Shown here: piece after piece, positions 8,431-22,275 of the stretch
How positions within the stretch are numbered: the stretch's first letter is position 1
Layout of the letters: every line of letters starts with the position of its first letter
Source: Candidatus Gastranaerophilales bacterium
GTDB lineage: Bacteria > Cyanobacteriota > Vampirovibrionia > Gastranaerophilales > Gastranaerophilaceae
Direction of reading: 5' to 3'
Length of the DNA stretch: 64,000 nt
Assembly: GCA_944324915.1 (NCBI GenBank)
Contig: CALUYD010000001.1
Coordinates: 186,001 to 250,000, forward strand
Position numbers and translations under genes: made by a program
Notes under the pieces: model-generated
Seen by the model: only the letters and a program-made list of their open reading frames with translations
Databases searched by the model: none
Told to the model about the DNA's origin: nothing

Positions 8431-9825
8431 ATGAAAGCATATATAAGCGCTTCAAATAAAGAAAATATAGAACTTTTAGCTAAAAATCTACAAGATAAAA
8501 AATATGAAATATTTGCACCAAAAGAAACTTATAAATATCTTAAAGAAAAAAATATTAATGTTATCGAAAGTTCAATTAAAAAGGCTTTAGACGATAATTT
8601 CGATGTTGTAGCAATTAATTTAAATTCTTTTGAAGAATATTTAGATAAAAATATTGATGAACAAACCCTAATAGAAAATATTAATATAGAAGAAATTGCG
8701 CTATTAAGAGCATCTGCTAAAAATTATGAAAATACAATAGTTATCTCATCAGATAAAGACTATAATATCGATTTAGATGATATTACTTTAGAAAAACGCC
8801 AAGAGCTTGCTCTAAGCGCATTTTTGACAACTTCAAAATATGACTTTTTAGTAAATAAAAAATTATCTAAAGAATTTAAAATAAAAAATAATGAACAAGC
8901 ATATTATTTTAATAAACTCCAAAATTTAAGATACGGAGAAAACCCTCATCAAAGCGCAAGTTTATATAGCTATAAAAAAGAACTTGATTGGAATTTATTA
9001 AACGGAAAAGAAATGTCATATAATAATTTTCTTGATGCAACCGTTGCTCTTGAAATTGTTGCTGAATTTTTTGATGTTTCAGCTATTGCAGTTGTTAAAC
9101 ATTCTAATCCTTGCGCAGTAGCTCTAGCAGCAAATATTGAACAAGCGTTCGATAAAACGCTTGATAGCGACCCTATAAGCCCATTTAAAAGCACAATTGC
9201 AACAACAAAAGAAATAACTCTTTCATTAGCTAAAAAATTAAGACCAATGAATTTAGAAGTTATAATTGCTCCAAGTTATAATTCTGAAGCATTAGAAGAA
9301 CTAAAGAAAAACAAAAATCTAAGAATTTTAAAAATAAATACGCCTTTATGTGAAATTTTAAAATTTCAAGATGAAGAAATTAAATTAACTCCCTTTGGCG
9401 CTTTAATTCAAGAGAAAAACAATAAAGATTTAGATATTAAAACCTTCAAAGTAATGACAAAGAAAAAACCTGAACAAAGCGAACTTGAAGATATGATTTT
9501 TGCACACAAAGTTGCAAAACATGCTAAATCAAACGCTATTGTTGTAGCTAAAGACTTAAGAACAATAGGAATTTGTACAGGTCAACCAAATAGAATAGAC
9601 GCTCTTGAAGTTGCGCTAAATCGAGTATGTGATTCTAATAAAGAGGCAGTTGTTGCAACTGACGGGACTTTAGAAACAGCAGAAAGTATATTAATTATGG
9701 CGCAAAATAGAATAAGCTCAGTTATTCAAGTTGCAAAAAGTGCAAAAGACGCTGAAATTGCAAAAATTGCGGATAAATATAATATCTCAATGATTTCAAC
9801 AGGAATAAGACACTATAAACATTAA
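8431..9825 (+). CDS. purH: PurH-like protein: AICAR formyltransferase domain with reduced IMP cyclohydrolase domain
   Basis: PurH normally carries out the last two steps of IMP synthesis. This copy is 464 residues; the family usually has about 510-530. The start resembles the cyclohydrolase (MGS-like) domain, but at about residue 50 it jumps from the strand NVIESSIKKALDD straight to the FDVVAINLNSFEEY strand. The segment that normally carries GRVKTLHPKIHGG is missing. The DIGGP motif is also changed, to NINIEEIA. The transformylase half keeps RYGENPHQ (167-174) and KHSNPC (223-228). Its FGG motif reads SPFKSTIA, and SDAFFPF reads TDGTLETAES. The enzyme may keep only formyltransferase activity, or be a paralogue with another role. 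It precedes the MFS gene by 2 bases. Confidence 0.8.
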   Translation: MKAYISASNKENIELLAKNLQDKKYEIFAPKETYKYLKEKNINVIESSIKKALDDNFDVVAINLNSFEEYLDKNIDEQTLIENINIEEIALLRASAKNYENTIVISSDKDYNIDLDDITLEKRQELALSAFLTTSKYDFLVNKKLSKEFKIKNNEQAYYFNKLQNLRYGENPHQSASLYSYKKELDWNLLNGKEMSYNNFLDATVALEIVAEFFDVSAIAVVKHSNPCAVALAANIEQAFDKTLDSDPISPFKSTIATTKEITLSLAKKLRPMNLEVIIAPSYNSEALEELKKNKNLRILKINTPLCEILKFQDEEIKLTPFGALIQEKNNKDLDIKTFKVMTKKKPEQSELEDMIFAHKVAKHAKSNAIVVAKDLRTIGICTGQPNRIDALEVALNRVCDSNKEAVVATDGTLETAESILIMAQNRISSVIQVAKSAKDAEIAKIADKYNISMISTGIRHYKH

Positions 9826-17480: not shown

Positions 17481-18824
17481 ATGGCTGACGTAAATACGGT
17501 TGTTATAATTAGTGATAAACAGGAGTTAATCAATCAAATTTCTTCAAAATTAGTACTTTTGAGAAATTTGGATAAAATTAAATCTTGTTCGATTGAAGAA
17601 GCCCAAAATATGTTTGACGGCTTTAATCCTAATGTCATAATTTTACATTGCGATAACAACAACATGCGCGCACTAAGCCTAATTAGAAAAATAAAAAATC
17701 AAGAAATATATAAAAATCTTCCAATTCTTTTAATTAATGAAAATTGTTCAAGAGAAGTCATAATAGAAGCATTTGATAACGGCATAAGCGATGTTTTATT
17801 TATGCCAATTATAGATTACGAATTGCTTATAAGAACAATTTGGTGCTTACAAAAAAATGAATTAAATTTAAGCATTGAATCAAGAACTCAATTTCTAACA
17901 AATTTAGGAATAGTCCAAGCGCAAACAGGCGTTTATACACAAAAATATTGTGATGATTTCTTAAAAAATGAAATAGCTCAATCAAAAAAATACTCTCAAA
18001 AGGCTTGTATTCTATTAATTGCGCCTGATAAAAAATATCCTAATTATAAAGATCCTAAAGATTTTATCTCTATAATTAAAAAATCAATCCGTATCAATGA
18101 TTCGGTTGTTATTAAAGATGTTGACGAGTTTTATGTTTATTTGCAAAAAACAAAATTAAACGGTGCATATAGCGTTTTTGAACGTATCAACAACAATCTT
18201 GGCGTTGATTTTGGTGCTAACGCAGGAGTTGTTGAAGTTCAAGACCAAAGTTTTGAAGATATTAAAGACGCGCTAAGCGCAGCACTTAATAAAGCAAGCG
18301 AAAACACAAATTCGTTAATTGTTGCGTCTGATTTTTATGTAAAAGAGAAAAAACCTACAATCAGCCTTAAAAAACCGTCTGAAATTTTAGCAAGACATGA
18401 GGCTTTAATTGAAGATAACAAAACTTCAGCAAAACCTGCAAATGAAGTACAAAACGCTTTTGATAAAAACAGCATTAAATTATTTAATCAAGCGTTTTTA
18501 AGAAAAGTCAAAGTTGTTATTAACCCTGTATTTAAAAAATATGAAAATATCTTACGCATTAAAAAGCAAGATTTTGCAATAAATTCATATACAGGCAACA
18601 AATCCATGTTCAGCGTTTCATCAGGCGATGTTTGCGCTTCAATGGCTATTGAATATGACGGTATAGAACATGCACTTGTTCGCCTTACAATTACCGATAA
18701 CGACCAAAAAAGGCTGTTCGAAACCGAAACCATTGACTTTACTATTTTAGATTACCGCAAATTATCTTTGATGCTTAATGAATTAATTGATAAATTCATT
18801 ATCATATTAAAAAAGAAAGCATAA
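17481..18824 (+). CDS. Degenerate response-regulator/GGDEF protein
   Basis: The 447-residue soluble protein starts with a receiver-like domain (about 5-125) followed by a GGDEF-like fold (about 135-300). Both have lost their key residues. The receiver phosphosite position reads ILHCDNNNM, with His 56 where Asp is expected. The conserved Lys before a Pro (usually KPF) is Met (LFMPI). In the GGDEF part the opening AQTGVYTQKYCDDFLKNEIAQ is clear, but the active motif reads DVDEF (213-217). The last 110 residues form a separate beta-rich domain (about 340-447) that I do not recognise. It probably works as a binding protein rather than a cyclase. It is monocistronic, with a GGGAGTG ribosome binding site upstream. 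Confidence 0.75.
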   Translation: MADVNTVVIISDKQELINQISSKLVLLRNLDKIKSCSIEEAQNMFDGFNPNVIILHCDNNNMRALSLIRKIKNQEIYKNLPILLINENCSREVIIEAFDNGISDVLFMPIIDYELLIRTIWCLQKNELNLSIESRTQFLTNLGIVQAQTGVYTQKYCDDFLKNEIAQSKKYSQKACILLIAPDKKYPNYKDPKDFISIIKKSIRINDSVVIKDVDEFYVYLQKTKLNGAYSVFERINNNLGVDFGANAGVVEVQDQSFEDIKDALSAALNKASENTNSLIVASDFYVKEKKPTISLKKPSEILARHEALIEDNKTSAKPANEVQNAFDKNSIKLFNQAFLRKVKVVINPVFKKYENILRIKKQDFAINSYTGNKSMFSVSSGDVCASMAIEYDGIEHALVRLTITDNDQKRLFETETIDFTILDYRKLSLMLNELIDKFIIILKKKA

Positions 18825-20136: not shown

Positions 20137-20168
20137 AGGCTCTTGGGGTATCAAGAGCCTTTTTTTAT
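20137..20168 (+). terminator. Intrinsic terminator with no obvious plus-strand gene
   Basis: AGGCTCTTG / CAAGAGCCT (9 base pairs, 6-base loop) is followed by eight T on the plus strand, the classical layout. Both neighbouring genes run on the minus strand; on that strand the hairpin follows the membrane-protein stop but lacks a good T-run. Confidence 0.7.
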
Positions 20169-20752
20169 TTCTTTCTGTATATCAAAATTAAAGCCAAAAT
20201 TAAGCAATATAATACAAATTCTGCTGTTTCTTCAATGCAAGAATTATGAAGATATTTTTCAGAATACATTTGAATAAATACGCAAGCAAATGAAGCTAAA
20301 AATGTCCAAACAGGAAATTTTACATTTTTAACCATTTCAATTACATCAACCCAAATCTTTTTAATTAATGCGTATAAAACACCGATTGCAATATAAATTC
20401 CAACTATAATGTGTGCTAAATAACCATATTTATAATGCGACCAAGTGTAAAATTGATCAACCGTTCCGGGTATTCTTCCAAAAATAGCTCTGCCATAGCT
20501 TAATTCTCTTGCAATCATTAAAAATAAAAGCATAGCTAAAAATGTATAAAATACTTTGTATTTTTTTGTAAATAAACAAACAACAAAACCGCCAAAAAGC
20601 GCAACAAGTTGAATATTTTCAAGCATGCTATTTTCAGGAATACTATCTAAATTAAATATTTTAATAAAAATAACACTAAAAATTAGCGCAAAAACAGCGT
20701 ATAAATTCTCTTTATGGATTTTAAAATCCACCATTTCAAAAATCTTTTTCAT
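20165..20752 (-). CDS. Integral membrane protein, function unknown
   Basis: The 195-residue protein has about five hydrophobic segments (roughly residues 17-33, 46-62, 67-85, 112-132, 146-165 and a last one at 175-193). Conserved-looking polar patches are RELSYGR and SHYKYGYLAH. It has no signal peptide beyond the first helix and no recognised transporter motif. It starts 70 bases from the divergent FlhA-like gene, so the two may share a control region. I cannot name a family. Confidence 0.72.
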   Translation of the reverse strand: MKKIFEMVDFKIHKENLYAVFALIFSVIFIKIFNLDSIPENSMLENIQLVALFGGFVVCLFTKKYKVFYTFLAMLLFLMIARELSYGRAIFGRIPGTVDQFYTWSHYKYGYLAHIIVGIYIAIGVLYALIKKIWVDVIEMVKNVKFPVWTFLASFACVFIQMYSEKYLHNSCIEETAEFVLYCLILALILIYRKK

Positions 20753-20823: not shown

Positions 20824-22275
20824 ATGACTAAAGAATTTAAACAAGAATTTTCAATTAAATCAATCCCAACAGATGATACCGTATTATTAGAAAATACACT
20901 AAATGCAATGAGTACAACAGGTTGGGAGTTGTATTCAATATATGAAGCAGAGCAAAACTCTAAAATTGTTTATAATTGCATTTTTGTTAAAGAATCAGCA
21001 ATAGAAGACGATGAAGCCACTGATGAAATTATTAATTTCAGAAGTACGGTTGAGCGTATGATGTATTCTAAAGAAGAACCATACGAACTTTGTTTAAATT
21101 TACAGAAAAAAATTAAAGATAAAAAAGAAAAAATTGAAAAAATTAAAAGCCTCTTAGACGGCGCTAAAGACGATGAAAGAGAACTTTTAAACGAAGAAAT
21201 CAATAAAGATATTGATGAGTTAAACGACATTAAAAGAGATTTAAAAGAAATTTTAGCACCCTCTAAAATGTCAAAATTTTTAGGCGAAGAAAGATTATCG
21301 ATAAATCTTTCATCTGAAAATTATTCAATTTGCAATCCTACCGACGAGAAAAACTTATTATCTCAAACAGTTAAAATAAGACAAGAATTAACTCAAAAAT
21401 TAGGCTATATAATTCCTAAAGTACAATTTATTGAAAATACTTCATTAGATGAGTACGATTTTTCAATAAATATCCATGGAGTTCCCGTAGTAAAAGCTAA
21501 AGCATATCCTGAATACTTAGCTTTTTGGGAAGATGAGCTTAATTTTGATAAAATTCCAAAAGATGCAATAAGAGAAAAAGACCCTCTAACAAAAAGAAAA
21601 ATTCTTTGGATACCAAAGGAAGATTGTAAGAATTATTGGCTGGAAGGGCTTGAAGCAAGCGAATACATTGCAAATTATTTGGAATATTATGCAATTGTTC
21701 ATGTTGATGAAATTTTTGATTACAAAGATTTAAACAGATACGTTGAATTTGTAACAAATGAAAATGAATTTTTAACAGAAACAATTTTAGGCGATTATAT
21801 AAGCGTTTCAGAGCTTAAATATATCCTAACTCAATTAATCAGAGAAAAAGTTTCGATAAAAGATATTACATATATCTTTGAAAAATTAAATGATTTTTCA
21901 GACGACCCTAATAAAGCTGATTTATTGGATAGATTAAGAGTATCTCTATCAAGACAAATCTCACAAAGTGTTGCAAATAAAGATAAAGAAATTTTTGCTT
22001 ATGAAATTGATGATGACACTATGGAGCTTTTAGAAAAACAAACAAATAAAGATGAACATAATGTCAAAATCGATTTATCTAAATTCAGCAAATTTAAAAA
22101 AATATTGAAAGAAACAAGAAAAGATTTACTTGAGCAAAATGCCGTTCTTATTGTTAAACAACAATACAGACAAGTTATCTTCATTCTTGTTTCTCAGTTA
22201 TTTATGGATATACCTGTTATTTGCTATGAAGAAGTTAATTTAGATTATAAATTAAATATTTTAGGTAAAATTTAA
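20824..22275 (+). CDS. Soluble FlhA/SctV cytoplasmic-domain (FHIPEP) protein
   Basis: The 483-residue protein has no membrane segment. Residues 5-57 form a small domain with the GWEL motif (33-36), resembling DUF4177. Residues 85-145 are a charged coiled coil. From about 158 to the end the sequence follows the cytoplasmic domain of type III export gate proteins (FlhA, InvA/SctV): KIRQELTQKLGYIIPKVQF, then the FSINIHGVPVVKAKAYPEYL strand pair. It continues with SVSELKYILTQLIREKVSIK, the DLLDRLRVSLSRQIS helix and a closing QYRQVIFILVSQLFMDIPVI. Export gates have eight membrane helices before this domain; none is here. No flagellar or secretion gene is nearby. The role is unknown; docking of export-like substrates or a borrowed scaffold are possibilities. 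Confidence 0.82.
   Translation: MTKEFKQEFSIKSIPTDDTVLLENTLNAMSTTGWELYSIYEAEQNSKIVYNCIFVKESAIEDDEATDEIINFRSTVERMMYSKEEPYELCLNLQKKIKDKKEKIEKIKSLLDGAKDDERELLNEEINKDIDELNDIKRDLKEILAPSKMSKFLGEERLSINLSSENYSICNPTDEKNLLSQTVKIRQELTQKLGYIIPKVQFIENTSLDEYDFSINIHGVPVVKAKAYPEYLAFWEDELNFDKIPKDAIREKDPLTKRKILWIPKEDCKNYWLEGLEASEYIANYLEYYAIVHVDEIFDYKDLNRYVEFVTNENEFLTETILGDYISVSELKYILTQLIREKVSIKDITYIFEKLNDFSDDPNKADLLDRLRVSLSRQISQSVANKDKEIFAYEIDDDTMELLEKQTNKDEHNVKIDLSKFSKFKKILKETRKDLLEQNAVLIVKQQYRQVIFILVSQLFMDIPVICYEEVNLDYKLNILGKI

Follow-up and report, generated by a model that had tools for sequence, protein, structure and literature searches.

A soluble FlhA-type cytoplasmic domain in Gastranaerophilales, related to the gate of a second flagellar-type export system

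What might a bacterium do with the cytoplasmic half of a type III export gate that lacks its membrane half, and which machine would such a protein serve? Type III gates are described as homo-nonameric rings whose single kind of receptor domain is anchored at the membrane. The question is raised by a gene in Candidatus Gastranaerophilales, a gut-dwelling group ("Melainabacteria") with cyanobacteria as its relatives (assembly GCA_944324915.1, contig CALUYD010000001.1, positions 186,001 to 250,000, forward strand); this whole 64,000-nucleotide stretch is called the window here. The genome (G000; 1.8 Mb, 36 contigs, 99.98% complete) was searched family by family. An uninterrupted open reading frame with an ATG start, at window positions 20824-22275 on the plus strand, encodes a protein of 483 amino acids, referred to below as the stand-alone protein. 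The features of the locus are as follows.

20165..20752, minus strand: membrane protein of 195 aa, divergent neighbour without a family match, found in the same place in 21 loci
20824..22275, plus strand: stand-alone FlhA2-C-like protein, 483 aa (open reading frame; FHIPEP E 6.1e-46; AlphaFold2 [AF2]/Foldseek; dN/dS 0.04-0.13)
20824..21003, plus strand: DUF4177-like (GWEL) beta-alpha-beta-beta domain, residues 1-60 (PF13783 sub-threshold; AF2 pLDDT 87.6)
21034..21258, plus strand: predicted helical/coiled-coil region in place of the membrane part, residues 71-145 (AF2 helices)
21205..21291, plus strand: FlhA2-type linker, residues 128-156, with P146 and M149 (residue conservation)
21292..21510, plus strand: FlhA-C D1, first part, residues 157-229 (mapped to Salmonella FlhA 362-434)
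21511..21654, plus strand: FlhA-C D2, residues 230-277, client pocket remodelled, F234 and W272 new (alignment)
21655..21714, plus strand: FlhA-C D1, second part, residues 278-297 (alignment to Salmonella FlhA)
21715..21951, plus strand: FlhA-C D3, residues 298-376 (alignment to Salmonella FlhA)
21952..22248, plus strand: FlhA-C D4, residues 377-475 (alignment to Salmonella FlhA)

Residues 134-473 of the stand-alone protein correspond to positions 321-654 of the 657 in Pfam FHIPEP (157.6 bits, with a cut-off of 29.1 bits), and residues 144-483 correspond to positions 333-678 of NCBIfam FlhA (E 3e-42); the curated equivalog scores are reached neither for FlhA (144.7 versus 772 bits) nor for SctV (95.7 versus 692 bits). 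An AF2 model built on 52 homologues (mean pLDDT 81, pTM 0.64) was matched by Foldseek to FlhA-C (6ch1; E 5e-20, TM 0.83 by target length) and to the C-domains of MxiA, YscV and EscV, the closest solved structure to the protein being B. subtilis FlhA-C (3mix). With the domain limits that we take to hold for Salmonella FlhA, 100% of the D1, 93% of the D2, 98% of the D3 and 95% of the D4 positions of Salmonella FlhA-C are occupied. The original prediction, which had allowed that the structure might not match FlhA-C, saw an FlhA/SctV C-domain through all subdomains; FHIPEP and the model bear this out, but its start at residue 158 was placed too late, as FlhA homology begins at residue ~121-128 and therefore includes the linker that follows the last membrane helix of FlhA. 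The eight-helix membrane half itself is absent by alignment and hydropathy (open frame of about 486 aa). These results confirm that the window protein is a complete FlhA/SctV cytoplasmic domain, comprising the linker and D1-D4 (residues ~128-483), without the membrane part.

In place of the eight helices, a GWEL-type small domain and a coiled coil had been proposed, and AF2, alignment and hydropathy agree with this. Against PF13783 (DUF4177; Pfam cut-off 25), the window protein scored 15.1 bits and the best family member 23.5 bits (E 6.5e-5); AF2 placed helices at residues 86-111 and 116-144, with low confidence at residues 60-84. A search of the genome with the domain's own alignment found no second copy of the domain. 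Deriving a function from the N-terminal fold was abandoned because the PDB gave no match below E 0.019 and hence no significant solved structure.

As the original prediction stated, the window holds no export or basal-body genes, checked against 32 flagellar/export proteins. The suggestion that the protein exists apart from a type III system, however, finds no support in the genome, which has two sets of FlhA, FlhB, FliP, FliF and FliI. The two FlhA genes lie at C3:96825 and C1:132910 (FlhA2, G000:C1:132910-134946); FliP is duplicated on C3 and C4 and FlhB on C3 and at C1:2632, together with two FliI and two FliF. System 1 is the flagellum: FliPQR-FlhB-FlhA1 are encoded on C3, FliF-FliG-FliH-FliI around C1:164-169 kb, and rod, ring and hook-associated genes around C1:34-42 kb, and the genome gives five flagellin-N matches. 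System 2 consists of SLT-FliE-FliF2-(FliG-like)-FliH2-FlhA2 at C1:133-139.5 kb and SpoA/FliN-FliO-FliP2-Q2-R2 on C4, to which, going by gene order, one of the two FliI presumably belongs. The system-2 cluster of G063 also has FliI, FlgB, FlgC and two FlgF/G-type rod proteins, and the flagellin-less G033 has FliJ-, FliK- and hook/rod-type genes near FlhB2. System 2 in relatives comprises FliE/F, a FliG-like protein, FliH/I/J/K, FlhA2, FlhB2, FliP/Q/R and rod proteins, with no filament (loci L034:10896-17524, L138:8831-12508, L219:5081-11067, L220:2652-10787 and L222:8686-19379), and is kept, independently of flagellin, in Gastranaerophilales genomes that lost flagellin. Its protein at the FliG position has 317-338 aa (L034:13777-14730 and L219:7233-8249); Pfam and NCBIfam recognised no FliG domain in it, and it is possibly a novel adaptor or ring protein of the cytoplasm.

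A second type III system in Gastranaerophilales is not described in the literature that we searched, whose coverage of subscription journals and preprints is thin. It has been reported that only three of nine Gastranaerophilales genomes have complete flagellar sets (PMC4040986) and that MEL.A1 is without the requisite flagellar genes (PMC3787301). These incomplete flagellar sets may in fact be system 2, and the stand-alone protein is a pointer to conserved export machinery of a second kind underlying them.

Which of the two gates the protein comes from was addressed by placing 52 cytoplasmic domains in a tree. All 20 stand-alones group as a single clade (100/100) within the FlhA2 clade (100/100), apart from FlhA1, and the branch that bears them is long, at 1.35 changes per column. 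Linker residue P146 is present in 20/20 stand-alones and 19/19 FlhA2 but 2/11 FlhA1, and M149 in 18/20, 19/19 and 0/11, respectively. Compared with the gates of its own genome, the protein matched FlhA2 with E 2.5e-47 and FlhA1 with E 2.4e-13. Altogether, the phylogeny and linker residues indicate that the stand-alone protein descends from the FlhA2 cytoplasmic domain. It diverges much faster than FlhA2: between G000 and G033, identity is 40% for the stand-alone protein and 81% for FlhA2.

The gene spans an order and is not the decayed remnant in a single strain that had been considered. In a sample of Gastranaerophilales counted row by row, 76 of 80 genomes have the stand-alone form, the four others being G029, G030, G057 (63% complete) and G077 (83% complete). 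In a survey of 292 genomes across the phylum, 129 of the 130 that belong to this family have it, as does one further genome of the order; no other class or order of the phylum yielded it, and the other 22 FHIPEP-bearing genomes of that survey, from other families and classes, gave matches of full-length-FlhA strength only. Within the genus, dN was 0.02-0.16 and dS 0.46-2.1, with the upper dS values near saturation, giving dN/dS of about 0.04-0.13; the gene is under purifying selection.

Seventeen family genomes are without flagellin and FlhA1, and among these FlhA2 is kept in 17, an FlhB in 17 and the stand-alone protein in 15, which contradicts a link to the flagellum proper. All high-completeness family genomes examined that have the stand-alone protein keep FlhA2; G296 (97% complete, from the phylum survey) showed it alone among FHIPEP genes, possibly because of a gap. 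Conversely, FlhA2 occurs without it in the family genomes G029 and G030 and in other orders, and it is therefore not essential to the gate. That it is kept across the order even without flagella suggests a role in the second, filament-less export machine. The original prediction had suggested that the protein could act in another machine; this is borne out in part, as that machine is most likely system 2, a second flagellar-type system rather than an unrelated one such as pili, because the protein derives from FlhA2 and stays when the flagellum is lost.

An operon partner was sought beside the gene and rejected, as adjoining genes are not conserved between genera: no neighbour conserved across genera was found, and the surroundings vary. 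The neighbouring membrane-protein gene, whose conservation had been proposed as informative, is present in 21 loci that all belong to the closest relatives (stand-alone proteins 68-96% identical) and is not the adjoining gene in other genera; as far as the evidence goes, it is not part of the system. Elsewhere in the window, positions 17481-18824 (plus strand) encode a response-regulator receiver together with a GGDEF-like domain, for which the match is weak, and an additional C-terminal part; the product may be a degenerate diguanylate cyclase.

The stand-alone protein has the four domains of FlhA-C (6ch1, 3a5i and 3mix), folded alike and in the same order, and it keeps the equivalents of Asp456 and Arg391 and roughly half of the core positions that are shared. 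The C-domains of the injectisome proteins SctV/YscV/EscV share this fold (E values of 1e-16 to 1e-18 in Foldseek), but the sequence is nearer to FlhA, as the bit scores above indicate, and the protein comes from its lineage's own FlhA2, which is of flagellar type. Unlike FlhA, the protein has a DUF4177-like head and a coiled coil instead of the membrane half, and it is encoded away from export and basal-body genes. It also departs from FlhA-C in its chaperone pocket, formed in Salmonella FlhA numbering by Asp456, Phe459 and Thr490 (PMC5932034, PMC8166844). The Asp456 equivalent, D253, is kept in 19/20 stand-alones, whereas that of Phe459 is replaced by T/S/N/I/L and that of Thr490 by R/N/S and others; the GYXLI glycine is serine in 19/20, and F234, W272, G275, Y300 and N356 are new near-invariant residues. 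The alignment indicates that two of the three classical pocket residues are lost and that the pocket is remodelled in stand-alones.

Further, independent FlhA2-C derivatives were found in genomes of other genera; they keep linker-D1-D3, and most lose D2 and D4. In small derivatives of 210-285 aa, D1 and D3 are 90-100% occupied, D2 2-24% and D4 0-8%. These small linker-D1-D3 proteins span several genera, some genomes having more than one copy (L207:6567-7424, L208:7227-8084, L209:7037-7684 and 8804-9520, L211:6740-7372, L212:6482-7120, L213:6851-7501 and L214:3001-3750). A 590-aa type, on a separate branch inside FlhA2, keeps D1, D3 and D4 and misses D2, and a 509-aa type (L218) has most of D2 and misses D4. 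The 590-aa proteins (L216:6042-7823 and L217:6400-8172) have two likely membrane helices between an N-terminus related to the FliG-like protein and FlhA2-C without D2; the N-termini of the two resemble the system-2 FliG-like protein by blastp (E 8e-7 and 6e-5) and phmmer (E 3e-7 and 2e-4). Because linker, D1 and D3 hold the Salmonella FlhA-C ring together (PMC8166844), the D2-less derivatives may be ring components stripped of the client-binding portions.

A stand-alone FlhA-C, or FlhA combined with DUF4177, is not described in the same literature. The closest precedent is HP1575, a stand-alone homologue of the FlhB cytoplasmic domain described as a "spare part" in H. pylori (Wand et al. 2006, cited in PMC3040844). 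Both are separate soluble copies of an export-gate cytoplasmic domain, HP1575 of FlhB and the present protein of FlhA. As with HP1575-like paralogues, the stand-alone protein derives from the C-domain of a gate, FlhA2, that is still in the genome. We know of no added N-terminal domain in HP1575. Chlamydia, with a FliI/FlhA/FliF set alongside its injectisome, likewise has two type III export sets per cell, one of them filament-less; unlike in Gastranaerophilales, a separate FlhA-C is not mentioned in the abstract of that report (PMC2830194).

We propose, with a probability slightly short of even, that the stand-alone protein has been repurposed to serve the second export gate as a soluble accessory, acting as a ring partner or as an alternative client receptor. 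Its linker, D1 and D3, all retained, would make contact with the FlhA2 ring, the protein being either an additional or mixed subunit of that ring or a second, soluble ring; the altered D1/D2 pocket and the DUF4177-like/coiled-coil head would serve clients or regulators not bound by FlhA2, and the protein would tune which substrates system 2 exports, and when. Against this, its gene is in no operon with system 2, G029, G030 and other orders with FlhA2 do without it, and its fast divergence and the loss of the GYXLI glycine mean that it may no longer fit an FlhA ring. A bolder extension, rather doubtful at present, is that soluble FlhA-C paralogues would join the FlhA2 ring so that exchangeable subunits, not a fixed homo-nonamer, set gate selectivity. 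The retention of a soluble receptor domain throughout an order of common gut bacteria, with stripped-down derivatives in some genera, offers a testable case for such modular selectivity.

A cytosolic client carrier or depot, which would use the altered D1/D2 pocket to bind substrates or their chaperones off the membrane and would always stay outside the FlhA2 ring, fits a soluble protein whose pocket is retained and remodelled with near-invariant aromatics and whose additional N-terminal domain could bind partners; we nevertheless regard it as unlikely, as the sister derivatives drop the client-binding D2 and keep the ring-forming part. The orphan locus with its changing neighbours, the fast divergence and the loss of the Phe459, Thr490 and GYXLI residues would suit recruitment outside type III export, for example into regulation by way of the DUF4177-like domain or into a different envelope machine, with the fold alone shared; yet the linker is still of FlhA2 type and FlhA2 itself is retained in the high-completeness genomes examined, making such recruitment quite unlikely. 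That the window genome has a flagellum and FlhA1 would allow the protein to be an HP1575-like spare for the FlhA1 cytoplasmic domain, or a competitor of it, a reading that is highly improbable given a sequence far closer to FlhA2 and retention in 15 of the 17 genomes without FlhA1 and flagellin. An export-gate gene in decay might likewise lack its membrane half, but the low dN/dS, frames intact across the order's family-level groups and the new near-invariant residues refute decay, leaving it a negligible probability. The soluble accessory of the FlhA2 gate is the reading that we prefer.

Mobile origins were also considered and rejected. IMG/VR gave one weak match, to the N-terminal domain only, and the matches on plasmids were to ordinary FlhA/SctV, with identities of about 20-25%. 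Residues 156-482 of the stand-alone protein are also matched by phrog_12657 (E 3.7e-24), a PHROGs family to which no function is assigned; this is probably FlhA from a bacterial contig counted as viral.
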